Shown: positions 2,223-20,935 of the stretch, one piece after another
How the letters are laid out: the number at the start of each line of letters is the position of its first letter
Numbering within the stretch: position 1 is the first letter of the stretch
DNA from: a virus
Length of the DNA stretch: 23,043 bases
Direction: 5' to 3' (one strand)
Virus record (IMG/VR): IMGVR_UViG_3300021197_000884
Span: 1-23,043 of that record
The notes under the pieces: generated by a model
What the model saw: only the letters and a program-made list of their open reading frames with translations
Told to the model about the DNA's origin: nothing
Database searches by the model: none
Made by a program: the position numbers and the translations under genes

Positions 2223-3362
2223 TTACACAGTAGCGTTTTCGGGAACTTTAACTGAAGAAATTGTTTTAATGAGAACCCCGATTGCCTGATATGGGTCAAC
2301 ATTGGCTGCTGGTCTTCTGTCTTCAAGATAACCACACCAATCAATTGCAGTCTGTGAAGGAATACGAACAGATGCACCTCTGTCGCTCACACCATAAGTG
2401 AACTTGCTATGGTGTTGTGTTTCGCAATCACCAGTAAGCCTCTTTTCGTTTTCTTCACCGTAAACTTTCATATGCTTATCGTGTGTTGTGGAGAGAGCAT
2501 CGCAAACATCTTCAAAGTATTGCTTGTCTCCTGCTTCTCTCATATATTCGGTACTAAAGTTAATGTGTGCGCCTGCTCCATTCCATTCACCTTCAACTGG
2601 CTTTGGATGGAGGGACATACTAAAATCTTGTCCTTCGGTTAATCTATGAAGCAAGTACCTACTCACCCACAAATCGTCTGCTGTTTCAACTGCACCCTTT
2701 GGTCCTAGTTGATATTCCCATTGGGAAACCAGAACTTCAGCGTTAGTACCAACCAAATCAATACCTGCTTGGATACAAGAAAAAGCGTGTTGCTCTACTG
2801 CAAGTCTATGATTCACATTCCGCGAACCAATTCCGCAATAGTTTTCACCTTGTGGTGTTTCATTGTGCCAGTTAACGGGAAGATTGTCCTTATCCATAAA
2901 GGTATATTCCTGTTCCACAGAGAACCACATATCATCACTCTCTTCATATTTTTCAACAATCGAGTGCAACTTATGACGAGTGTTTGTTTCGTGTGGAGTT
3001 CCATCGGAATTATATGTGTCACACAGAACAATAAAAGAAGCCATATCACTTACTTCGAGTGGGTTGTGGTACACTCTCACGGGATGAAGAACAACATCAC
3101 TCTTCTTGGTCTTTGCTTGCTTTGTACTAGAACCATCAAAGTTCCACTCTGGAATTCTTTCTAGTACAGTTTCTCTGCTCATATTTCCGCTTTGTGAATC
3201 CATTGTCCATTGTTCATAGCGAACCTTGCTTCGGAGATTCTGTGTGTTGTAACCATCAAGCCAAACATATTCTAGTCTGACGGTAATGTTTGCACTAGCA
3301 CTCATCTGGTGCTGTCCTTCGATTTGCATAGGTGAGTTATATTCATTTTCGTAGTTGTTCAT
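2223..3362 (-). CDS. Glutamine synthetase, type II (GSII-like)
   Basis: 379 residues, the size of type II (eukaryote-like) glutamine synthetases and clearly shorter than bacterial type I (about 470). The family makes glutamine from glutamate, ammonia and ATP in the cytoplasm. GSII hallmarks occur in order: YVWLDG (32-37), WNFDGSST (73-80), the metal/glutamate site FSVEQEYTF (147-155, E150 and E152), YCGIGS (175-180), EVLVSQWEYQLGP (209-221), KPVEGEWNGAGAHINFST (254-271, H266), RLTG (308-311), RGASVRIP (328-335, R333) and GYLEDRRPAANVDPY (344-358). All expected active-site positions I can place are present, so it looks catalytic. The first 20 residues are extra and low in complexity; starts at M12 or M20 are possible, but ATG 3362 overlaps the methylase stop (ATGA). 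It could instead be a divergent ligase acting on another amine. Confidence 0.93.
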   Translation of the reverse strand: MNNYENEYNSPMQIEGQHQMSASANITVRLEYVWLDGYNTQNLRSKVRYEQWTMDSQSGNMSRETVLERIPEWNFDGSSTKQAKTKKSDVVLHPVRVYHNPLEVSDMASFIVLCDTYNSDGTPHETNTRHKLHSIVEKYEESDDMWFSVEQEYTFMDKDNLPVNWHNETPQGENYCGIGSRNVNHRLAVEQHAFSCIQAGIDLVGTNAEVLVSQWEYQLGPKGAVETADDLWVSRYLLHRLTEGQDFSMSLHPKPVEGEWNGAGAHINFSTEYMREAGDKQYFEDVCDALSTTHDKHMKVYGEENEKRLTGDCETQHHSKFTYGVSDRGASVRIPSQTAIDWCGYLEDRRPAANVDPYQAIGVLIKTISSVKVPENATV

Positions 3363-4966
3363 AGTTTTTCCACTTTCTTAAAAACGAACACTGGTTCGTA
3401 CTTGAGATATTTATCGTTAACTTTGCAGTAATTTTTACAAGTAGGCTTACCGTCTTCGCCCATTCTATTTTGTCCAGGCATTCCTTCGAGTGCCATCTTT
3501 AGAGTGTATTGATATTCCATACCACACTCCTCTAGTATTTTTCTTGAGTCTTCTTCGAGAGGAAGATACTTACCACTTATAAGTAGGTCAGCAATATTCC
3601 ACAGAAGATATCTATCTGTTCGAAGATACTCAGCACAAGTTTCTAGAGTTGGTCGGAGGAATCCTTCCCTCCACGCCTCATACGACGAGCCATATTTTTT
3701 ATAGGACTGATTCCCATCTTCGCTATACGCCTCTCGGTTGAAATAAGGTGGTGATGTAAAGATAAGGTCGAGTTTTCCTGTGTAGTCTTGGAAGTGTGGG
3801 TCGTGTTGGATTTCTTCTGAGCCGAGTTGGTATACGTCGAAAGTATTTGTTTCGGAAAAGAAAGGATTTCCACGATAAGTCTTGGTATTGTAGAAAGTAG
3901 CAAGAGACTCATACTTGCTCCTATCGCCACCATCGACAAAATTATCAGGATTTGGGTCAGTACCAATATAATGAATCCTGCGGTCATCCCGAACACCCAT
4001 AGCACCAAGTATGCGACCACCCCAGCCAGCAGACGGGTCATAGATGTTAATAACTTCTTGGTCTTTGATGTCTTCTGTGAATCTTTCATACAAGTATTTA
4101 GCAGTCATTGGAGGGAAGTTCACAGCAGGTTGAATATATCCGATACGATATGCGGCGAACGCCTTCGGAAACATCTTCTTTCCTTGCTTGTAGACACGAA
4201 TGTTATATCGCATATCGTCAGACATATTTTCAATGTCAAAGGTGGAGTGGTGTCTATATTCCAACCAACCCTTATCTTTGTAATACTTAACCTCATCTTT
4301 TGTTAGATTAAGAATTTCACTCTGTTCTACTTGGAAGTAACCACTATTCAGTCCCTCTCGTACCTTTACTTCTTCGAGAATGAAATCATACCCCTTAAAG
4401 ATATGCTTTGCAGTAAAGAAAGTTTCTATCCAATGGTTAGCATCAGAAGTATTAATGATAGCATACTTCTTACTATTTGTGAACGCGGACTTCGCGTGTT
4501 CATAAAGGCTGTCTCTACGAAAGTGTCGCATTCCACCTTTGACCATTTTGTCTAGGTGCTTGTCATTTGCAAACAAATCATAGATGGAATAACCAGTGTC
4601 CTTGTCCGTATAATTAATACGAACCTTCATCATATTACTAAACCATTGGTCTGCTTCGCCACCCATACGAGACTTGTTGATAATTACATCATCGTCGATG
4701 TCAGACAACTCATCGCTATGGGTAAATTCGTGAACAGGGTACTCTGCAATTTTATTGAACTGGTCAATAATGCCTTCTTCGGTCTTTCCTGTTCGGGGAG
4801 GACACCCGTAAGTGTCCCACGAATCCTTAACTACTTTACGCATTTCAATAACCCACTCACGAAACTCATCGGGAGTCATCTCGACGAGTTCTTCGTAATT
4901 GCAGTTAATGTGTGAGTCAATCACACTTTCATTTCGTTCATAAAATAGTTTAGTTTGTGTGTTCAT
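3359..4966 (-). CDS. DNA methyltransferase (N6-adenine or N4-cytosine type), solitary
   Basis: 535 residues. A class I methyltransferase core occupies the C-terminal half. The SAM-binding motif I is DPSAGWGGR (310-318), followed by YIGTDPNP (333-340), and the catalytic motif IV is TSPPYF (404-409). The T/S-PPY form is used by enzymes that methylate the exocyclic amino group of adenine or cytosine. Motif I precedes motif IV, unlike the beta class. The first 300 residues have no motif I recognise and may carry target recognition or a separate domain. No restriction endonuclease lies nearby, so it probably acts alone, for example to protect or mark phage DNA. The start overlaps the end of the dehydratase gene by 17 bases, and the stop overlaps the glutamine synthetase start. 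Confidence 0.88.
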   Translation of the reverse strand: MNTQTKLFYERNESVIDSHINCNYEELVEMTPDEFREWVIEMRKVVKDSWDTYGCPPRTGKTEEGIIDQFNKIAEYPVHEFTHSDELSDIDDDVIINKSRMGGEADQWFSNMMKVRINYTDKDTGYSIYDLFANDKHLDKMVKGGMRHFRRDSLYEHAKSAFTNSKKYAIINTSDANHWIETFFTAKHIFKGYDFILEEVKVREGLNSGYFQVEQSEILNLTKDEVKYYKDKGWLEYRHHSTFDIENMSDDMRYNIRVYKQGKKMFPKAFAAYRIGYIQPAVNFPPMTAKYLYERFTEDIKDQEVINIYDPSAGWGGRILGAMGVRDDRRIHYIGTDPNPDNFVDGGDRSKYESLATFYNTKTYRGNPFFSETNTFDVYQLGSEEIQHDPHFQDYTGKLDLIFTSPPYFNREAYSEDGNQSYKKYGSSYEAWREGFLRPTLETCAEYLRTDRYLLWNIADLLISGKYLPLEEDSRKILEECGMEYQYTLKMALEGMPGQNRMGEDGKPTCKNYCKVNDKYLKYEPVFVFKKVEKL

Positions 4967-5909
4967 TTATCATATCATCCATAAGGGTTTCGAATGTATA
5001 TTTCGGTTCCCATCCCAACTCTTTTTTGAGTTTACTGGAATCACCTTTCAAGTCTCGGAGTTCTTCTGGTCTGTAATATCTTTCATCTATTGTAACAAAT
5101 TCTCTGTAGTCTAGTTCCAGAGAACTAAAAACATAATCACAACATTCCCTCACCGAATGAGAGACTCCTGTGGCACAAACATAATCATTTGGTTTATTGT
5201 GCTGGAGCATCAACCACATTGCTTCTACATAATCTTTAGCGTGTCCCCAATCCCTCGTCGCATCTAGATTGCCAAGTTTAAGAGTTGTTTTATTTCCTTG
5301 CTTGATTTCCCAAGCACCTTTCACTATTTTTCCTGTTACGAAATTGGAACCTCTTCTTGGAGATTCGTGATTGAATAGTATACCATTAGAAATAAACATA
5401 TTATAAGAATTTCTATAGTTTCTTGCGATATTATAAGCAAAAACTTTGGCACAACCATATGGACTCACTGGACTCATTGGTGTGGTTTCTCTTTGGAAGC
5501 CGTCTTCATCAATATTATTACCAAACATTTCAGAAGAAGATGCTTGATAAATCTTTGTCTCGGGACAAACAATTCGACAAGCCTCAAACAAATTTAATAT
5601 ACCCAAACCAGTTGTAGCGGCTGTGTATATTGGAATATCAAAACTAATTCGAACGTGAGACTGTGCTGCCAAACTATACACTTCGTCTGGATTAATTTCT
5701 TTTAAAAGGTGAATCAGTGAGGGAATGTCTCCCAAGTCACCATAATGCAAATTAATCTTACTGATAATATGATTCAAACGGGAAGATTGATTTTCGGCTA
5801 CCGAGTTTCTTCGAACCAGTCCGTGAACTTCATATCCTTTTTCCAGTAGTAGTTCTGCAAGATAGGAACCATCCTGTCCACTTATACCTGTAATTAATGC
5901 TCTTTTCAT
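4950..5909 (-). CDS. gmd: GDP-mannose 4,6-dehydratase
   Basis: 319 residues of the extended short-chain dehydrogenase fold. The family converts GDP-D-mannose to GDP-4-keto-6-deoxy-D-mannose with bound NADP, the first committed step to GDP-L-fucose and related sugars. Visible motifs are the nucleotide-binding TGISGQDGSY (7-16), LVRRNS (31-36), SSSEMFG (124-130) with catalytic Ser/Glu, the YGCAK catalytic Tyr-Lys (151-155), and NHESPRRG (180-187), typical of this family. DATRDWGHAKDYVEAMW (about 215-231) is also characteristic. It is somewhat shorter than the E. coli enzyme (about 373), mainly by a compact C-terminus. The start overlaps the stop of the GDP-fucose synthase gene (ATGA), so the two enzymes are probably made together. 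Confidence 0.95.
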   Translation of the reverse strand: MKRALITGISGQDGSYLAELLLEKGYEVHGLVRRNSVAENQSSRLNHIISKINLHYGDLGDIPSLIHLLKEINPDEVYSLAAQSHVRISFDIPIYTAATTGLGILNLFEACRIVCPETKIYQASSSEMFGNNIDEDGFQRETTPMSPVSPYGCAKVFAYNIARNYRNSYNMFISNGILFNHESPRRGSNFVTGKIVKGAWEIKQGNKTTLKLGNLDATRDWGHAKDYVEAMWLMLQHNKPNDYVCATGVSHSVRECCDYVFSSLELDYREFVTIDERYYRPEELRDLKGDSSKLKKELGWEPKYTFETLMDDMINEHTN

Positions 5910-6808
5910 AATCTAATATGTCCGCTATAATTCTCAACAAACCAATCTATAGATTCCTGTATGCCTTGTTCGATTGGTGTAAATTCAAAATCAGGAATCA
6001 TTGTCTTTAGTCTTGAGTTGTCAGATGGTTTTCTTTGTTGTCCGTCCATCTTTCCATTGTAATACAAACTTCCCCAGAAATCCATCCTGCTTGCAATCGT
6101 CTGTGCAAGTATTGCCATATTTATCTCCTCGTCGGGAGAAAGAATAAGAGGGTCTGGGTGGTTATAGTTTTCCAGAACCCATTGAACCAATCTAGCAACA
6201 TCCTTAGAGTAGATAAATTCTCTGTATGGTCTTCCTGTTCCCCAAATATCAAAATGGGTATTTTCTTCTTTTGCAAGATAACACTTATGAATAAGTGAAG
6301 GAATAACGTGTGCGGAATCTAGATTGTAATTGTCGTTGGGGCCATATATGTTACAAGGAATCACAGTTACAAAGTTACAACCATACTGTTCACGGTATGC
6401 TCGACTTTGTACCTCTAACATTCTTTTTGCGTATGCATATCCATAGTTAGAAGAATGCGGTTCGCCTTTATGAATTTGGTCTACCGACAAAGGAAACTCT
6501 GCTCCGTCTGGAAATATACAAGTGGAGAGGAAGGATACCACTTTATTCACTCCCGTTATTCTTGCCGCTTCAAGAACATTAGAATTCATAATAACATTTT
6601 CGTAATAGAACTCTCCAGGCTTTTCTGAGTTTGCCTTGATGCCTCCTACTCTTGCGGCGCAATGAACGATTGAATCAATCTTATTAGTATTAATATACCT
6701 TATGATTTCATTTAGATTCATAAGGTTTAGACTCTTTCGAGTTGGTTTATATTTTGATTCAATGGCGGAACCTACGAGGCCTGTTCCACCTGTCACTAGA
6801 GTATTCAT
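5906..6808 (-). CDS. fcl: GDP-L-fucose synthase (epimerase/reductase)
   Basis: 300 residues, short-chain dehydrogenase family. It would convert the product of the neighbouring dehydratase to GDP-L-fucose by epimerisation at C3 and C5 and NADPH reduction. Motifs are TGGTGLVG (6-13), HCAARVGGI (49-57), FLSTCIFP (93-100, with the Ser-Cys pair used in catalysis), the Tyr/Lys pair YAYAK (124-128), IPCNIYGPNDNYN (about 151-163) and GTGRPYREFIYSKD (about 191-204). The E. coli enzyme is about 321 residues. The ATG shares a base with the stop of gene 46 (TAATG), so this cassette is tied directly to a core recombination gene rather than set apart with its own promoter. Confidence 0.95.
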   Translation of the reverse strand: MNTLVTGGTGLVGSAIESKYKPTRKSLNLMNLNEIIRYINTNKIDSIVHCAARVGGIKANSEKPGEFYYENVIMNSNVLEAARITGVNKVVSFLSTCIFPDGAEFPLSVDQIHKGEPHSSNYGYAYAKRMLEVQSRAYREQYGCNFVTVIPCNIYGPNDNYNLDSAHVIPSLIHKCYLAKEENTHFDIWGTGRPYREFIYSKDVARLVQWVLENYNHPDPLILSPDEEINMAILAQTIASRMDFWGSLYYNGKMDGQQRKPSDNSRLKTMIPDFEFTPIEQGIQESIDWFVENYSGHIRL

Positions 6809-13885: not shown

Positions 13886-13914
13886 ATTATACAGGCAAAA
13901 ACCCATACGGTCAA
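13886..13914 (-). promoter_or_regulatory. Sigma70-type promoter before uvsY
   Basis: Minus strand -35 TTGACC (13914-13909), a 17-base spacer and a perfect -10 TATAAT (13891-13886). The predicted start lies roughly 20 bases before the uvsY ATG. The -35 box contains the TGA stop codon of the tube-like gene (13913-13911). It marks the boundary between the late virion genes and the recombination block, which must be read earlier in infection. Confidence 0.7.
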
Positions 13915-14534
13915 GATAATTTTGTAATTTCATAATTAGTATAACGAAAAGTGGCAGTACCAATCAATGCATCTGGACTAGTGGTAGTGCTATCAAACTC
14001 TAATCCAGAAAGTGATGTTGGCAGTAAGTTAAAGAACTGTACTCGAATCTTGGGATTCATTGCACTATTCAGAATAGTAAGAGTGGCGTCTGTGTAGTGT
14101 TCAGGAGCCTTTTCATATTCTGTATAATCATCAGTATGAACGGTTGAACGAATCCATTTATACAATTCCATCCAGTTATTCATTTCTTCGTCAACCATAA
14201 AATTAATTGTAAGGTCATCAAATTCAGGAACGCCAGGTGCGTGTGGAATATCAACAAACCTCGTAGGCTGTTCGATTACACTCACATTAATGCTGGGTAG
14301 GTTTGCACCTTGGCAGAAAAATGTAACGTGTGGACATCTTTTCATCGAGAACTGAAAGTATGTCGGAAGTAGCGGATTTAGATTGTCGGGTTGTCTTGCT
14401 AAAAAGTCTGTAGATATTCCAGTGCTTGGGTTATATCCTGCAACTTGGTCACCAGTAGGACCAGCGGATTTCGTTGGTTTATTGCTACCAATTGAAACTC
14501 TGTCTGTCCAAGTATTTCTTGATTGTGCTTCCAT
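13911..14534 (-). CDS. Virion protein with tail-tube-like core (gp19-type fold)
   Basis: 207 residues from ATG 14534, chosen because AGGAG precedes it; the longer frame to 14591 would run through the terminator hairpin. The core CQGANLPS (74-81), PEFDDLTINFMVDE (103-116) and NWMELYKWIRS (120-130) follows the same pattern as the tube protein in this window (CKSASIPA, GDRTFGDWELTILED, DKFEQW), so it probably shares the tube fold. Candidates are a tube initiator, a gp54/gp48-like baseplate protein or another tail-end protein. Some related phages place a tail completion gene (gp3) between 23 and uvsY, so that remains an alternative. It has its own late-type octamer upstream. Confidence 0.85.
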   Translation of the reverse strand: MEAQSRNTWTDRVSIGSNKPTKSAGPTGDQVAGYNPSTGISTDFLARQPDNLNPLLPTYFQFSMKRCPHVTFFCQGANLPSINVSVIEQPTRFVDIPHAPGVPEFDDLTINFMVDEEMNNWMELYKWIRSTVHTDDYTEYEKAPEHYTDATLTILNSAMNPKIRVQFFNLLPTSLSGLEFDSTTTSPDALIGTATFRYTNYEITKLS

Positions 14535-14550
14535 AGAATTTCTCCTATAG

Positions 14551-14558
14551 TATGTATA
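14551..14558 (-). promoter_or_regulatory. Possible late promoter of the tube-like gene
   Basis: TATACATA on the minus strand, one base from the T4 late consensus TATAAATA, 16 bases before the ATG at 14534 and directly after the gp23 terminator. The same octamer occurs upstream of gp22. The leader would be very short. Confidence 0.35.
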
Positions 14559-14588
14559 AAAGAAAAGGGGAGTCCCGAAGGACTCCCC
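14558..14588 (-). terminator. Rho-independent terminator after gp23
   Basis: On the minus strand a perfect 9-base stem GGGGAGTCC/GGACTCCCC (14588-14580 with 14575-14567) closes a TTCG loop in the cUUCGg context, a very stable tetraloop. It is followed by TTTTCTTTT (14566-14558). It lies about 30 bases after the gp23 stop, as expected for the end of the abundant capsid message. Confidence 0.9.
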
Positions 14589-14620
14589 CAATTCTTATCT
14601 TTAGATGTTACTGATAATTA

Positions 14621-16042
14621 TCAGTCACCAACTGTAGTAGTTGAACCACCAGAGAGGATACCGTGGAGGTTATCAATACGGAAGATTCTGTAGTACTTGT
14701 TAGTACGACGAGCGCCCATATTGTTACTTGCGGCAGAAGTACCTCTAGCGAATGGATTCTCGGTCATACCGTACCGAGTCTTGAATCCAATCTTGGGCTG
14801 GAAGTTGTTTGCATCAACCGCACGAACCATCTGGAGTGGGACATATGGGCAGTAGAAGATACCAGCATCATACTGGCTCGTACCGCGATATCCAACACAG
14901 ACGTAGTTAGTGGTGGCGTATGGGTCAACATAAACCTTAATCTTACCGTTCAGTGTTCCGACAAAGGTGTTACCAGTGTCATCGACTTCAAGTCCAGCAA
15001 ATGCGGCACCAGCGTCGAGAATACCAGTCATTGAAAGAGCGGCTGCGACATCTGAAGAACAGATGACGATGTTACCCTTACCACGACGAGTGTCCTTGGC
15101 GATTTGGTTTGCTTCGCGTTCGATTTGGAATACCAAACCACGGAAGCGTTCTGCTGACCAACGACCATCGGAGTCACGCATAACGTCGTAGACACCTGCT
15201 TGCTGATATGAACCATCAACAGTGATACCAGCAGTTGGGTGGACGGAACCACCGTGACTGAGGGCAGTTGTGTTGTGGAGGTCAGTTTGGTCTGCACCAA
15301 GAACTGCTTGCTCGTAGATGTTACGAATAACTTCGCGGTTGATTTCAGCAAGAATCTCAGTGCTAAGAATATTAGCGAGTTCTGCTTCAGCATCAAGTCC
15401 GTGAACAGCCTTGAGGTCTTGTGCGAGTTCAACGGAGTACTCAGCCTTGAGGGCGCGAGTCTTCGCTTCAACTGCTACACGTTCGATGGAGAATGCCATC
15501 TGGTTTGGTGTTAAGTTTTCAGCATCAGTTGTTGTGTGTCCTGTACCAACATCGTAAGTACCGCTGAGTGGGTCGCCGGTTCCGAGATGGGCACCAGTAC
15601 CACCACCAGTTACACCAGTAGCGGCTGCTAAACCAAGGGCATTGTGACCAGTGATTGCTTCGTTGTAGAATGCTTCGTCTGCCTTGCCACCGTTGGCATC
15701 GACATACTTAGCACGCATTGCGAAGATAAGTCCAGTAGGACCAGTCATTGGTTGAACACCGCAGATGTCGTATGCCATTAGGTTAGGCATTGAACGACGA
15801 ACGAGTGAAATCATAACAGGGTCGAAACCTTGTACGTCACCGTTTGAACCGATGTGTGCGCCCATACCATTGCCTACGGCGTTAGCGGGTACGGCTTCCA
15901 TTAGTGCCTGCTCTTCGTTCTCTAGTAGGATAGTTGTTACATTACGCTTGTAACTATCGCTAATCGAGGGAAGTTCAGGATGCTCAAGAACTGGCTGCCA
16001 CTTCTTTTGAAGTTGTTCAGCGAGTAGTGCTTTATCTTCCAT
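14621..16042 (-). CDS. 23: Major capsid protein gp23
   Basis: 473 residues (T4 gp23 is 521). Forms the hexamers of the head with an HK97-type fold. Hallmarks are LVRRSMPNL (79-87), YDICGVQPMTGPTG (90-103) and IFAMRAKY (105-112), which match T4 gp23 closely, and in the C-terminal half a capsid-typical run from VYVDPYATTNYVCVGYRG to FYCPYVPLQMVRA. A prohead protease site of the L-x-E|A type is visible at LME|A (cleavage after E49), which would remove the N-terminal 49 residues, comparable to the T4 65-residue delta piece. AAGGAG lies 8 bases before the ATG. It has its own likely late promoter and a strong terminator, fitting the most highly expressed late gene. Confidence 0.98.
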   Translation of the reverse strand: MEDKALLAEQLQKKWQPVLEHPELPSISDSYKRNVTTILLENEEQALMEAVPANAVGNGMGAHIGSNGDVQGFDPVMISLVRRSMPNLMAYDICGVQPMTGPTGLIFAMRAKYVDANGGKADEAFYNEAITGHNALGLAAATGVTGGGTGAHLGTGDPLSGTYDVGTGHTTTDAENLTPNQMAFSIERVAVEAKTRALKAEYSVELAQDLKAVHGLDAEAELANILSTEILAEINREVIRNIYEQAVLGADQTDLHNTTALSHGGSVHPTAGITVDGSYQQAGVYDVMRDSDGRWSAERFRGLVFQIEREANQIAKDTRRGKGNIVICSSDVAAALSMTGILDAGAAFAGLEVDDTGNTFVGTLNGKIKVYVDPYATTNYVCVGYRGTSQYDAGIFYCPYVPLQMVRAVDANNFQPKIGFKTRYGMTENPFARGTSAASNNMGARRTNKYYRIFRIDNLHGILSGGSTTTVGD

Positions 16043-16109: not shown

Positions 16110-17138
16110 TTACGCTTCTTTTCCGTTTCGTGGAACAGCGGCGTTACGGCTAATGGATTTAACATAACTGTTAATCATTCCACCATAAACGGGGGCTTCT
16201 TCTGCAAGAGTGTTCTCTTCCGAGTCTTCTACAGTATCGTTAACTGGAGCGTTAAAGTAACTCTCCTTAAGAAGTCCTAGTTTTTCTGTGTACTGTTCAG
16301 TGCTATCAAACTCAAGTCCTTCTGCGAGGCTACCAAGTTTAGCAGTGTCAGTATCGGTAAGGTCGCGGGTCATTTCAGCGAAAACCTTAACACATTCGAG
16401 GTCAGCATTGTTCTTGGTAAGAGCAACATTGGCTTCGAGTTGTTCGTTAAGTTTGGTTTCGAGACTTTCAACCTTTGTGTTTGCTTCTGCAAGTGCGTCG
16501 AAACTATCTTCGGGAACTTCGATGTTGTGACTTTCGAAGAGAGTCTTCAGGTCAGTAATGAACGACTCAGAAATTTCATTCTTAAGTCCGTGTTCAATTG
16601 CAATCTGATTCTCTTCCATCCACTCCTTGATGACGTAGTTTAGATAGTCATCAAGTTTTTCGGATAGTTCAGTTGAGATGCGTTCGGTTTCTTCTGCGAG
16701 AGCAACGTCGAATGACTCTTGAATCTCTGTACGAAGAATTTCTTCACGTTCGCTGAGAGCGACAGTAAAGATAGTTGTTGCCTTAGTGCGGAAGTCTTCT
16801 GAAAGGTCTTCACCACCAAAGAGAGCATCCATATGTTCTGCGGTTGCTTTAGCGGAAGAAGCCTTCATTGCGATGGTTTTCGCATTCTTTGTGGCTTCTC
16901 CTTCGCCAACTTCTGGTTCAATGACCTTTGCTCCCTTATCACTTTCAGCATCTTGGTAGATATCGTTATCTTCGATGCTGTCGGTGTTAACGGATGGTGA
17001 TGCTGTTGGCTTCTCGCCTTCAGCGTCAACATTGACTTCGCCCTTTTTCTTGGGCTTTACTTCTGCTTGAGTTTCATCAAGAGTTGCTTCACTCTCAATG
17101 ATGTTCTTTGCTACTTCTATGATGTCTTTGTCGGACAT
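16110..17138 (-). CDS. 22: Prohead core scaffold protein gp22
   Basis: 342 residues (T4 gp22 is 269), acidic and mostly helical. It is the main scaffold of the prohead core, later cut to small peptides by gp21. The family signature YLNYVIKEWMEEN (165-177) is present, flanked by long helices (about 115-260). The N-terminal 100 residues are low-complexity, acidic and Pro/Thr/Ser rich, and account for most of the extra length. Candidate gp21 sites of the L-x-E|A type are visible, for example LAE|A at 216-219 and another in TLAEEAPV near the C-terminus. AAAGGAG lies ahead of the ATG. Confidence 0.93.
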   Translation of the reverse strand: MSDKDIIEVAKNIIESEATLDETQAEVKPKKKGEVNVDAEGEKPTASPSVNTDSIEDNDIYQDAESDKGAKVIEPEVGEGEATKNAKTIAMKASSAKATAEHMDALFGGEDLSEDFRTKATTIFTVALSEREEILRTEIQESFDVALAEETERISTELSEKLDDYLNYVIKEWMEENQIAIEHGLKNEISESFITDLKTLFESHNIEVPEDSFDALAEANTKVESLETKLNEQLEANVALTKNNADLECVKVFAEMTRDLTDTDTAKLGSLAEGLEFDSTEQYTEKLGLLKESYFNAPVNDTVEDSEENTLAEEAPVYGGMINSYVKSISRNAAVPRNGKEA

Positions 17139-17184: not shown

Positions 17185-17838
17185 TCAAAAATTAGACAAG
17201 AAATGTTTGAATACGATTAATTTGGCTTCTTCTACTTGTTTTCTATCTTTGGCTGATAGTATATACTCTTTATACTCTTCAATTACTCTGGGTTGAAGAA
17301 TGCCATTTTCCCATACCCATTCCTTACCTTCCATAACGCCATTCACAAAGGCATCTGGTGCAGAAGGGTCTGCAACGATGTCAACAGCAGCCAACATAAA
17401 GTCCTCTTGGACTTCATTGACACCATCATCGTTCTTCTTAAGAGAACCCATACCGCGTGAGGAAACACCGAGTTGTGCGCCTTCGTCGATAAGGTTTTTT
17501 ACAATATTCCCGTAGGGAGTATCTAAAATCTTTGCTTTACCAATGATATTGTCACCGTCTTCTTTGAGTTCGGTGATAATATGTGAAACTCTTTCGAGGT
17601 TAAGAGTTGGTCCTTCGGGGTGACCAAGTTCACCCATTGCTCTTTTGCTTTCAACTAGTTCTTTTGTATAACGAGAAACTTCCTTCATAAGAGTATCTTT
17701 AGGATACATTCTGCCGTTTCGGTTCTTCTGCTCTGATTGCATAAAGATACCTTCAATGAAGTGGTTCTTGGTTCCCTTTTCTTCATTTTCTTCAATGATG
17801 TATTTTACATCTTCGGTTGTTTCTGTTATGAGTCTCAT
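17185..17838 (-). CDS. 21: Prohead maturation protease gp21
   Basis: 217 residues (T4 gp21 is 212). This serine protease of the herpesvirus-assemblin-like type sits in the prohead core and cuts scaffold, internal and capsid proteins after L/I-x-E. The expected catalytic His lies in MGELGHPEGP (H73), and the nucleophile Ser in GVSSRGMG (S126 or S127, the S-S-R-G motif). DIVADPSAPDAF (153-164) is also typical of the family. The N-terminal NRNGRMYP (39-46) is a well-conserved substrate-groove segment. The start lies one base after the stop of the gp67-like gene, with GAGG before it. Confidence 0.96.
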   Translation of the reverse strand: MRLITETTEDVKYIIEENEEKGTKNHFIEGIFMQSEQKNRNGRMYPKDTLMKEVSRYTKELVESKRAMGELGHPEGPTLNLERVSHIITELKEDGDNIIGKAKILDTPYGNIVKNLIDEGAQLGVSSRGMGSLKKNDDGVNEVQEDFMLAAVDIVADPSAPDAFVNGVMEGKEWVWENGILQPRVIEEYKEYILSAKDRKQVEEAKLIVFKHFLSNF

Positions 17839-17839
17839 T

Positions 17840-18142
17840 TCATTCCTCGCTAGTTGTTGGTTCTGTTGTTTCGAAATCGACTACATCAAGGGTAGTAGGA
17901 GCATCTATTACATCTGCGAACGGGTCAATACCACTTTCAATTGAGGGCATTGGCTCTTCACCATTTGCTCGTTCTGGCTTTCCAATACTCTTTGCAATCT
18001 CTACTTTTTTGTCTACCATTGCTTCGGCAGATTTTTTGTAAAGAGTATCTTTGATACCGTCTCTTGCGGCGTCCAGATTCTTCGACGCAATGTTGTCGAT
18101 AACATCTTTGGTTGTGATTGGTTTGTCTTCACTATATGGCAT
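17840..18142 (-). CDS. 67: Prohead core protein, gp67-like
   Basis: 100 residues (T4 gp67 is 80). The segment IDNIASKNLDAAR (15-27) through AEAMVDKKVEIAKSIG (39-54) follows the T4 gp67 pattern (I-x-x-I-K-S-N-D-L-x-A-A-R ... K-x-x-I-A-R), and the C-terminal 40 residues are acidic as in T4. In T4 this small core protein is needed for correct prohead assembly and is cut by gp21. It lies directly before gene 21 as in T4-type maps. AAAGGA sits before the ATG, and an exact late octamer lies 57 bases upstream. Confidence 0.75.
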   Translation of the reverse strand: MPYSEDKPITTKDVIDNIASKNLDAARDGIKDTLYKKSAEAMVDKKVEIAKSIGKPERANGEEPMPSIESGIDPFADVIDAPTTLDVVDFETTEPTTSEE

Positions 18143-18143
18143 A

Positions 18144-18851
18144 TTAAAATCCTTTGGTTTGTTCTTCTACGAATTTCATAACCTTGTTATGATTTTCTTT
18201 ATTTATAATAAACGCCTCTCTGAACTTGCTTTTATTCGACATATCTAAGTGGTCGTAAACAAGTTTAACATTCTGAGCCGTTTTCTCATCAATATCAACT
18301 TTCGTTCCGTCGAGTAGTTTGTCAACAAACAAATCTAAATCGAATGACTCCTTGTATACCTTCTTAAGCATACTCCAGAGCCAGTGTTTATCATCTTCGA
18401 GTTCGTCATCCATACCAAATTCATCTGCAACTGCAAAAGCAGCCTCTGTACTATTGTCGAACTTTCTTTTATTCTTGTTGACCCACTTTTGAACTTCTGA
18501 TTTATTATGAATATTTGCTTCAGAAAGAAAAGCCTCAAAGTTACTATCAACGCTTTCCATTGTAGAACTTTTCTTAGCGTATCGGCGTGCTTCTCTTTTT
18601 GCAATTCTAGGACCAGGAAAAACTTCCCATCGCTTATCGTCAACATAGACGACAACAGGTTTTGTTGCACCAAGTCCAAGAGACTTGATTACAATGTTCT
18701 TTCCGTTAACTTCAAAGGAATCAATAAAAATTTCCTTCTCTAGTCTTGGGTCAAGAGCAATTTCTGGAGAGTCAACACTTGCTTCTTTTTCTGCGGGTGC
18801 TGGTGCTTTCTCTTCTGCTTCATTGATAAAATCTTTGAAGTTCCTAGCCAT
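18144..18851 (-). CDS. Putative capsid-interior protein with T4-type targeting motifs
   Basis: 235 residues from ATG 18851 (TGATG overlap with the portal stop; GAGGAG 8 bases upstream). A TTG at 18854 would add one residue. Function is not established. The N-terminus NFKDFINE|A (residues 4-12) closely resembles the capsid-targeting sequence of T4 internal proteins (YQEFIAE|A), which is cut by gp21. A second copy, NFEAFLSE|A (104-112), lies mid-protein. Between them is a beta-rich domain (about 38-85: EIFIDSFEVNGKNIVIKSL, VVVYVDDKRWEVFPG); after the second motif the protein is helical and charged (113-235). In T4 this place holds core genes 67 and 68. I infer a core or internal protein processed into two parts. 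Confidence 0.85.
   Translation of the reverse strand: MARNFKDFINEAEEKAPAPAEKEASVDSPEIALDPRLEKEIFIDSFEVNGKNIVIKSLGLGATKPVVVYVDDKRWEVFPGPRIAKREARRYAKKSSTMESVDSNFEAFLSEANIHNKSEVQKWVNKNKRKFDNSTEAAFAVADEFGMDDELEDDKHWLWSMLKKVYKESFDLDLFVDKLLDGTKVDIDEKTAQNVKLVYDHLDMSNKSKFREAFIINKENHNKVMKFVEEQTKGF
18200..18207 (-). promoter_or_regulatory. Exact T4-type late promoter octamer before gp67-like gene
   Basis: TATAAATA on the minus strand, the T4 late consensus read by gp55-RNA polymerase. It lies inside the 3' end of the preceding gene, 57 bases before the gp67-like ATG. It is the only exact copy I found on the minus strand of the window. Confidence 0.55.
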
Positions 18852-20383
18852 CAATAGTACTCCTCTGTGCCTGTAGTGATGAGTCCCTTTTCTCTTTCGC
18901 TCTGAATCTCGTTGTCCATTTCCTTAATTTCTTCTTCGGATTGATGAAGAATATGTTTACGAATCCAGTCGATAGAATAATACTTACCGATGTGTTCGTT
19001 CATAGAGCCTAAGAGATTCATTCGTTCTGTGAGAATTTCGTTGTTCTTGAGTTCAGTGAAGTATGAATCTCTGGCAAAATCGAATTGAACATCGTCTTTA
19101 ATCTTTTGCCAGTCATCTTCGCTCATAATTCCTTTAAGAACCAGTTGTACTCTCATTGCTTGTAGGAACAAGTCGGAGAATTTTTGTCGCTGTTTCTCAA
19201 TGAATTTGAAGAACTTAAGTTCATCACGATTGATTTCCGAAGAGCGACCCATATTGAATCCGTTGTCAGATTCAAGTCGGCTAATTGGAACATTCAATGC
19301 ACGATACAGTTTCTTCTTGAAGTATTCGACATCTTCCATCTCTCCGAGGTTTTCACCACCAGATAGGGTATCGATTTCTGTACCACGACCGCCTTCACGA
19401 CGAGGTAACCAGAAGTCTTCAAGCATAGACATATGTTTTTTGTCATCACGAATCTCACCAGTGTTTACATCGTAAACTAGTTTATTTCGGTATCGATTCA
19501 TAATGTCACGGAGATATTGTTCTGCCTTGTTCTTCGGCAAAGAACCAACATCGATGTAGAAGATGCGGCGCTCGGGGGCGCGAGAGATTCTATAAATCAC
19601 CACCGCATCTTCTATCATTCGAAGTTGGTTGAGTGGTTTAATAACCTTATGGAGATTTCCATATACTCGTCTTTTGTCTACATCAAACATTCCAGAGTGA
19701 ACATAAATGATAGAGTCAGGATGAATCTTAATCCCCTCCTGTGCCCCATCTGCAAATCCAAGTCTGTCATCTCTTTCTTGTTCAGTATATACAAAGAATT
19801 CTCGTACATCTGTAATAACTTTGATGCCTTCGTCATTTGTTTCTTTATCAATTTTTCGAATCTTGCGAATTGAAGTAGAATCAATAGGACGAAGTTCTTT
19901 AATTCCTTGCTTCTCTTTCTTATCATCGATTACGATATGGTAATATGCTTTACCATCAATGTACCACTTACGGAACATTTCGTATCCTCGAACATTAAAG
20001 TGTAGAAGTTTTAGAATGTGTCCAAACTCGTCTTGCATTTTGACCTTGACGGAATCTGGCAAATCAACGTGTTCCAAATCCATCTCTACCGTTTTCTTAA
20101 TATCGTCTTGAACAATTGCTTCATTTACGATATCATCAATAGCGGCATCTACTTCAGCGTGAAGAGACATCTCTCTGTATTTCTTAATAAGTTCAATGTC
20201 GTTCTTAATGTTTCCATCAAAATCGACGTACTGACCAAAGAAATTACCAGATTCAATAGTAGTAGCACCATCATCAAAATCAGGTGGGACAAAAGAAACA
20301 GGGCGCCGGATAGTTGATTCAAGACCAACTTTACCCGCGTCTTTCTTTCTCCCAATAGTAAATCCAAAAAAGTCAACTGGCAT
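18851..20383 (-). CDS. 20: Portal vertex protein gp20
   Basis: 510 residues (T4 gp20 is 524). It forms the dodecameric DNA entry ring that also starts prohead assembly. Strong family signatures are AEVDAAIDDIVNEAIV (76-91), WYIDGKAYYHI (140-150), LRPIDSTSIRKIRKI (164-178) and ISRAPERRIFYIDVGSLPK (266-284) followed by KAEQYL. The run DDKKHMSMLEDFWLPRREGGRGTEIDTLSGG is the classic gp20 crown/stem segment used in environmental surveys of T4-like phages. AAGGAT precedes the ATG. The stop shares a base with the start of the next gene. Confidence 0.98.
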   Translation of the reverse strand: MPVDFFGFTIGRKKDAGKVGLESTIRRPVSFVPPDFDDGATTIESGNFFGQYVDFDGNIKNDIELIKKYREMSLHAEVDAAIDDIVNEAIVQDDIKKTVEMDLEHVDLPDSVKVKMQDEFGHILKLLHFNVRGYEMFRKWYIDGKAYYHIVIDDKKEKQGIKELRPIDSTSIRKIRKIDKETNDEGIKVITDVREFFVYTEQERDDRLGFADGAQEGIKIHPDSIIYVHSGMFDVDKRRVYGNLHKVIKPLNQLRMIEDAVVIYRISRAPERRIFYIDVGSLPKNKAEQYLRDIMNRYRNKLVYDVNTGEIRDDKKHMSMLEDFWLPRREGGRGTEIDTLSGGENLGEMEDVEYFKKKLYRALNVPISRLESDNGFNMGRSSEINRDELKFFKFIEKQRQKFSDLFLQAMRVQLVLKGIMSEDDWQKIKDDVQFDFARDSYFTELKNNEILTERMNLLGSMNEHIGKYYSIDWIRKHILHQSEEEIKEMDNEIQSEREKGLITTGTEEYY

Positions 20384-20413: not shown

Positions 20414-20935
20414 TCAACCGTCTGTTGCAGGCGAAGTCCACCACTGGTATGACATTGTTACTGGGAATTCAGCAAGATTGTCGTTATTATCAAAAGCGAC
20501 TTCGATTGCACCTACGGTCTTAGGCCAACATCCGACGAAGTTATAAGTTCTCTTACGATTTCCTTCTCTGTCTAACCAGTGAATTTTCCAGTCTTGAAAG
20601 AGAGGAGTGTTGATACTTCCAATTTCAGAAACATTATCGAAGTGATGTTGGAATGTTTGGTTCCACTGTTCGAACTTGTCTCTGAGATTATGGTCTGCAT
20701 CTTCGAGGATGGTTAGTTCCCAATCGCCGAATGTTCTATCGCCTGGCATCTTAAACTGACGGCCACGCCAAGGAACGACGATTTCACCAATCTCTGAAGC
20801 AGGGATTGATGCTGACTTACACATAAACTTTAGTAGACCGTCATCGCCGTTGTTGCCGATAGCGCCTTCTACTTCAAAGAGGTTTCCTCTTGCTCCACCA
20901 TTTTGAAGTGCTTGTGATTTGAATTCGTTTAACAT
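20414..20935 (-). CDS. 19: Tail tube protein gp19
   Basis: 173 residues (T4 gp19 is 163). It builds the inner tube of the contractile tail through which DNA passes. Family pattern: NLFEVEGAIG (18-27), FMCKSASIPASEIGEIVVPW (37-56), the conserved FKMPGDRTFGDWELTILED (61-79), DKFEQW (86-91), then GCWPKTVGAIEVAFDNNDNLAEFPVTMSYQWW near the C-terminus. AAAGGAG lies 9 bases before the ATG. It stands between the sheath gene and the portal gene, the standard T4 order. Confidence 0.97.
   Translation of the reverse strand: MLNEFKSQALQNGGARGNLFEVEGAIGNNGDDGLLKFMCKSASIPASEIGEIVVPWRGRQFKMPGDRTFGDWELTILEDADHNLRDKFEQWNQTFQHHFDNVSEIGSINTPLFQDWKIHWLDREGNRKRTYNFVGCWPKTVGAIEVAFDNNDNLAEFPVTMSYQWWTSPATDG

Follow-up and report, generated by a model that had tools for sequence, protein, structure and literature searches.

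P0001, a 235-residue protein encoded between the portal and prohead protease genes of a T4-like phage, is probably a prohead protein that is addressed by an N-terminal capsid-targeting sequence (CTS) and predicted to be cut twice by the gp21 protease. The window, the whole 23,043-nucleotide stretch of DNA that was analyzed, is a fragment of an uncultured marine T4-like phage. Tags that direct cargo into proheads have been established by experiment in T4, where they have also served to bring foreign proteins into the head; to our knowledge, such tags have been little described in marine T4-like phages, abundant as these are. None of the basic elements, whether tag, gp21 cut, or prohead core protein, is of a new kind. 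What appears to be new is that a conserved second cut is linked to the insertion of a domain and that address modules are swapped in front of a shared cargo domain.

P0001 is encoded in the head gene cassette

The complete P0001 coding sequence (18144-18851, minus strand; ORF and translation) starts at the ATG at 18851, which overlaps the stop codon of portal gp20, and ends with the stop codon at 18146-18144. An AGAGGAG ribosome-binding site (18860-18866, minus strand) is located 8 nt upstream of the ATG. Homologues were found in at least 17 viral contigs. The gene order on the minus strand is gp18, gp19, gp20, P0001, gp67-like, gp21, gp22, and gp23, assigned mostly by Pfam and PHROG matches, with gp18 assigned by position and resemblance to annotated phages only. 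Portal gp20 (18851-20383; PF07230, 2e-176) precedes P0001, and a 100-residue gp67-like prohead core gene (17840-18142) follows it. The latter aligned with T4-type gp67 and has weak matches to phrog_1064 ('prohead', 0.0038), phrog_683, and phrog_2088. Prohead protease gp21, the presumed cutter (17185-17838; PF03420, 1.5e-39), scaffold gp22 (16110-17138; PF25623, 7e-63), and major capsid protein gp23 (14621-16042; PF07068, 1e-133) complete the series, all on the minus strand. These neighbors bear out the earlier placement of the gene among prohead core genes.

Comparison with RB68 puts P0001 in the position of gp67 and gp68, between portal gp20 and protease gp21. This slot was occupied in all six close relatives that had the interval in view in a small sample drawn independently via gp22. 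The gp21 of the window shares 64% identity with the gp21 of Pelagibacter phage Mosig and 60-62% with cyanophage gp21 proteins. The window has two tail-tube-type proteins, gp19 (20414-20935) and a second one encoded after gp23 (13911-14591, minus strand; phrog_45, 1.5e-37). The phage also encodes a glutamine synthetase-like protein (2223-3362, minus strand; PF00120, 1.7e-13), with genes for a GDP-mannose dehydratase and an epimerase nearby (4950-6808).

P0001 contains two candidate gp21 sites

Two motifs that an earlier sequence-only reading had picked out, NFKDFINE|A and NFEAFLSE|A, are located at residues 4-12 (motif 1; 18816-18842, minus strand) and 104-112 (motif 2; 18516-18542, minus strand). 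Cleavage at E11|A12 and E111|A112 would create the new N-termini A12 and A112 that this reading had predicted. Gp21 cuts after L/I-x-E (PMC9026906). Sites were counted in head proteins as L/I-x-E with A, G, S, or E in the next position, and P0001 has exactly two, one in each motif. The count was zero for gp18, gp19, gp20, and the gp67-like protein of the window, one for gp23 (LME|A, residues 47-50; 15893-15904, minus strand), three for gp21, and nine for gp22. The RB68 counts were zero for gp20, three for gp67, one for gp68, two for gp21, and nine for gp22. In T4-type phages, the portal is uncut and the scaffold is shredded, and the predicted sites follow this known processing status. The gp67 proteins differ, with three sites in T4 and none in the window.

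Short gp21-type sites are common, and L/I-x-E|A/G/S alone was present in 34% of shuffled P0001 copies. The strict pattern [FY]xx[FY][ILV]xE[AGS] is far rarer. It occurred at three internal positions in ~72,000 residues of the phage group, two of which are the family's motif 2, and shuffling residues 21-235 produced an internal match in 0.54% of trials. The strict layout is enriched at N-termini; in G001, a 134-kb relative, it starts three proteins and has no internal match in ~37,000 positions. As a control, the pattern recovered the N-termini MKTYQEFITEA and MKSYTQFLNEA, which are of the internal-protein type, together with gp23 FGSFLTE65|A from the T4-type phage RB68.

Several tagged or tag-like proteins were observed along the way. 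A 203-residue G001 protein starting MSKQYKQFINES (L041 15603-16214, minus strand) matches the S-adenosylmethionine lyase family PF23780 (2.3e-11), and by this match it could possibly be a capsid-packaged anti-restriction enzyme. The T4-like tag MKKFTQYIPES precedes a DUF6267 domain (PF19782, 1.6e-115) in G001 (L041 12358-13563, minus strand), and the tag MKSFKQYIIEG is found on a 496-residue protein without a known family (L042 15545-17035, plus strand). The cultured pelagiphage Mosig encodes a 461-residue protein with the tag-like start MQVQPFKNYLEEA (L092 3351-4742, minus strand).

Motif 1 resembles the T4 targeting tag

The P0001 N-terminus, MARNFKDFINE|A, keeps the spacing of the T4 CTS shifted by one residue, with F5-F8-I9-E11 corresponding to Y4-F7-I8-E10 of the T4 IPIII tag. 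In this tag, targeting depends on residues 4 and 7 and processing on residues 8 and 10 (PMC9026906). AlphaFold places a short helix at residues 6-11 followed by a disordered stretch. The aromatic pair of motif 1 is retained in almost all tag-bearing members. Four relatives (L018, L020, L056, and L061) have motif 1 without a properly spaced cleavage glutamate, and in these proteins the first cut is lost. Motif 1 thus appears to behave as an address with a cut that is usually retained.

Motif 2 is more likely an internal cleavage site than a tag

Motif 2 lies in an inter-domain linker whose AlphaFold pLDDT is <50 at residues 105-113. The targeting counterparts in motif 2 are F105 and F108, and the processing counterparts are L109 and E111. 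F105, E106, L109, and E111 are invariant in the 12 of 12 relatives having the motif, and its mean majority fraction is 0.77 compared to 0.54 and 0.51 in the variable flanks. The second aromatic, position 108, varies among F, L, V, Y, and M. The P1' residue is A in nine members and S, E, and V in one each; the V belongs to L017, whose LNE|V is outside the T4 consensus used here. The four relatives with the degraded motif 1 keep motif 2 as the only gp21-type site of the entire protein. The sequence-only reading had proposed to check both motifs for conservation; it holds for the invariant residues of motif 2, but the motif 1 cut does not persist throughout.

The same reading had taken both motifs for targeting sequences, and on this point the comparison argues against it. 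The RB68 control site FGSFLTE65|A, the known gp23 maturation site, has the layout F-x-x-F-L-x-E|A. T4 gp23 uses this layout as a plain cleavage site, so the layout is not targeting-specific. Because the targeting aromatic varies while the cleavage L and E stay invariant, motif 2 fits a putative internal cleavage site better than it does a second targeting tag. The difference in residue conservation between the motifs, together with the four relatives that keep only motif 2 as a site, points to an address in motif 1 and a cut site in motif 2.

Motif 2 and the KFDN domain travel together

AlphaFold models divide P0001 into a beta domain (residues 28-96; 18564-18770, minus strand) and two helical domains located behind the motif 2 linker. 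This division agrees with the beta-rich and helical pieces proposed earlier. The beta domain has four strands and a helix, is kept in 17 of 17 members, and is modeled with a pLDDT of ~80 in residues 40-90; the four-stranded part covers residues 40-78. The helical domains are the 'KFDN' domain (residues 114-170; 18342-18512, minus strand), which always occurs together with motif 2, and the C-terminal domain, or C-dom (residues 179-235; 18147-18317, minus strand). The models are modest overall, with a mean pLDDT of 67 for P0001 and 77 for the C-terminal piece alone.

Motif 2 and KFDN were present together in 12 of 12 members and jointly missing in the other five (L021-L023, L008, and L009). Beta domain and C-dom remain in L021-L023, and in L008 and L009 the C-dom is the next, separate gene. 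The gp21-only tree was too poorly resolved, and a tree of gp20, gp21, and gp22 was used instead; the 12 motif 2/KFDN members form one group in it with modest support (82/82). This distribution is consistent with the acquisition of motif 2 and KFDN by a single insertion. The earlier suggestion of a fusion of two internal proteins is partially supported to the extent that motif 2 and KFDN behave as one insert, with 12 members having it and five without it. A search for KFDN in bacterial genomes found none, and beyond the P0001 family it was found in viral contigs only in one 485-kb and one 121-kb phage. In L008, L009, L017, and L021, a gp67-like segment (hhalign, 91.7%) replaces the tag; the segment is confined to those relatives and is not found in P0001.

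P0001 had no family match in PHROG, Pfam, or NCBIfam, and matches to Pfam, NCBIfam, PADLOC, and PDB sequences were at chance level only. Searches of its pieces against defense and anti-defense families gave no match. P0001 was also considered as a gp67 or gp68 homologue; similarity to T4 gp67 and gp68 was searched for and none was found. Fold searches of the AlphaFold models against the PDB returned nothing significant: the best beta-domain matches (Z of 5.9, 6d7k_D, and below) and the match for the C-terminal piece (Z of 2.6) were within background.

C-dom occurs behind different N-terminal modules

BFVD matches led to cyanophage proteins of phrog_4187 and phrog_696, and sequence profiles confirmed the relationship for the C-terminal domain only. 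C-dom aligned with the cyanophage phrog_4187 proteins by hhalign (97.7% over 56 columns), and the PHROG 4187 similarity is confined to P0001 residues ~180-232 rather than spanning the full length. C-dom also aligned with CTS-tagged proteins of other marine phages (hhalign, 96.2%). Among the matches listed, same-slot proteins of L127, L132, L134, and L139 start MAIKRFK(A/S)(Y/F)V(A/S/T)E(A/E/D). This tagged family lies between gp67 and gp21 (L127 1556-2086, L132 2222-3061, L134 1918-2433, and L139 2494-3021), and in each protein the tag is followed by an acidic linker, L(S/T)EG, and C-dom. The L134 protein had no match in annotated phages. In L120, C-dom is fused to a gp67-like segment. All 39 outer-ring loci with gp20 and gp21 in view have a gp67-like gene among the matches listed, and none of the 39 has a beta or KFDN domain among those matches.

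The C-dom proteins of S-PM2 and ACG-2014e adjoin genes annotated as head or virion structural proteins, and the C-terminus of gp159 of the Synechococcus phage ACG-2014d aligned with them. ACG-2014d gp159 (L082 1512-2339) carries at its start a copy of residues 49-80 of the major capsid protein of the same phage (L070 3846-5234), identical at 26 of 32 positions, and the copied segment likely spans a gp21 site (MLTE|A compared to MINE|S). The address modules in front of C-dom would thus include a CTS tag (the window and L134), a gp67-like segment (L120, and with the beta domain L021 and L017), and a copy of a capsid cleavage junction (ACG-2014d gp159). We tentatively propose, as a possibility that falls short of even odds, that C-dom is a previously undescribed cargo or core domain of the prohead in marine T4-like phages, placed behind interchangeable address modules and released by a conserved gp21 cut that precedes it, and that the window clade carries an inserted second module consisting of a cut site plus a domain.

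Other contents of the gp20-gp21 interval were also recorded. Consecutive ORFs between gp67 and gp21 of L160 (2453-2764 and 2785-3051) have the identical start MDIQEFYKDKEKRDLIDTITTAKWVTEEQKEAIIDILAED, and by this identity the pair is an apparent recent tandem duplication. Pelagiphage-type intervals encode small, probably beta-rich proteins of the type MADxVxxQTIxDxxG and of a second type (L066 2415-2807 and 2800-3156, L067 1894-2684, L123, L146, L148, L164, and L174).

Proposed processing and alternative readings

From these data we infer that P0001 is packaged and cut at both sites, and likewise what becomes of the pieces and what the protein does. The first 11 residues would dock into the gp22 scaffold core during head assembly, as the T4 CTS does. 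Active gp21 would then cut after E11 to remove the tag and after E111 to part the N-terminal beta half from the C-terminal helical half consisting of KFDN and C-dom. Motif 2 would be a protease site that arrived, or was retained, together with the KFDN insert, and not a second address. The halves would most likely serve in or clear from the assembly core, or stay as internal head proteins. The prohead destination and the processing at both sites suggested by the sequence-only reading find support as predictions from sequence.

A host-takeover or anti-defense role, which that reading had also raised, found no direct support. Such an injected effector would enter the cell with the DNA as one or more mature pieces and act on the host or its defenses, like T4 IPI-IPIII. 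T4 IP1-IP3 all block restriction enzymes, and in T4 the tag marks injected anti-restriction proteins (PMC12373910); the CTS-like tag of P0001 and the three other tagged proteins of G001, one of which matches the S-adenosylmethionine lyase family, fit this reading. Against it, the P0001 pieces are acidic (calculated pI of 5.1 for residues 12-111, 5.6 for 112-235, and 5.3 for 12-235), match no defense or anti-defense family, and come from a gene with a fixed slot in the head cassette, and in relatives C-dom is found together with gp67-like core segments. We consider an injected effector improbable, kept alive by the IP1-IP3 precedent and the tagged SAM-lyase-like protein, and a structural or assembly role is moderately favored over it because of the acidity, the constant slot, and the link to gp67-like segments.

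The remaining alternatives concern the motifs themselves. If only the tag were processed, motif 2 would be an uncut structural element such as a short amphipathic helix or a domain contact. AlphaFold draws a helix at residues 100-111, F105 and E106 match the cleavage residues in invariance, which cleavage alone would not require, and L017 has V after the glutamate. However, the invariant L-x-E stands within variable flanks and is the only gp21-type site in four relatives, and an independent protein has an equivalent L(S/T)EG in front of its C-dom; we judge an uncut motif 2 to be unlikely. Chance resemblance, with P0001 not packaged at all, gains from the frequency of L/I-x-E sites but is made very improbable by the position-specific conservation, the N-terminal enrichment, the gene neighborhood, and the recurring architecture. 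The least probable arrangement has two gene products, in which translation from an internal start at M98 would yield another tagged protein (MESVDSNFEAFLSEA...), with motif 2 serving as a true tag. M98 precedes motif 2 in the window, L001, L002, and L004, but it is K, L, or N elsewhere in the family and is preceded by no ribosome-binding site similar to AGAGGAG. The internal start was rejected on these grounds, and cutting at both motifs by gp21 remains the preferred reading.

If this reading is true, a conserved two-cut cargo protein with swappable tags would show that the loading of heads is modular, with tag exchange as its mode of evolution. The predicted N-termini A12 and A112 are testable, and the motif pattern can be used to find packaged, possibly injected, proteins in uncultured phages.

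Comparison with known systems

Among the known systems closest to P0001 are the PHROG 4187/696 cyanophage proteins, such as S-PM2p147 and ACG-2014d gp159, which are annotated as unknown function or 'head'. They have a homologous C-dom and are encoded beside genes annotated as head or virion structural proteins. S-PM2p147 (LVEA 73) and the ACG-2014e homologue (IDEA 72) each have a single gp21-type site, located toward the N-terminus. They differ from P0001 in their N-terminal parts, their position before gp61, and the lack of a KFDN domain.

T4 gp67 and gp68 are gp21 substrates encoded in the same slot (20-67-68-21), and several P0001 relatives have a gp67-like N-terminus. P0001 itself has no detectable similarity to them, and its own phage has a separate gp67-like gene.

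T4 internal proteins have a basic mature form and are accessory and poorly conserved between relatives. P0001 is acidic, consists of three modules, and has a second conserved internal site. T4 internal proteins are encoded by sporadic accessory genes, whereas P0001 occupies the gp20-gp21 interval, which was constant in the six relatives of the small gp22-drawn sample. P0001 was therefore not classified as a T4 internal protein, being neither basic nor accessory. The likeness to IPI, IPII, IPIII, and Alt is in the N-terminal tag of about 10 residues, in which targeting and processing residues are spaced identically and which ends in a gp21 site, and at its N-terminus P0001 is predicted to work as a T4 internal protein does.
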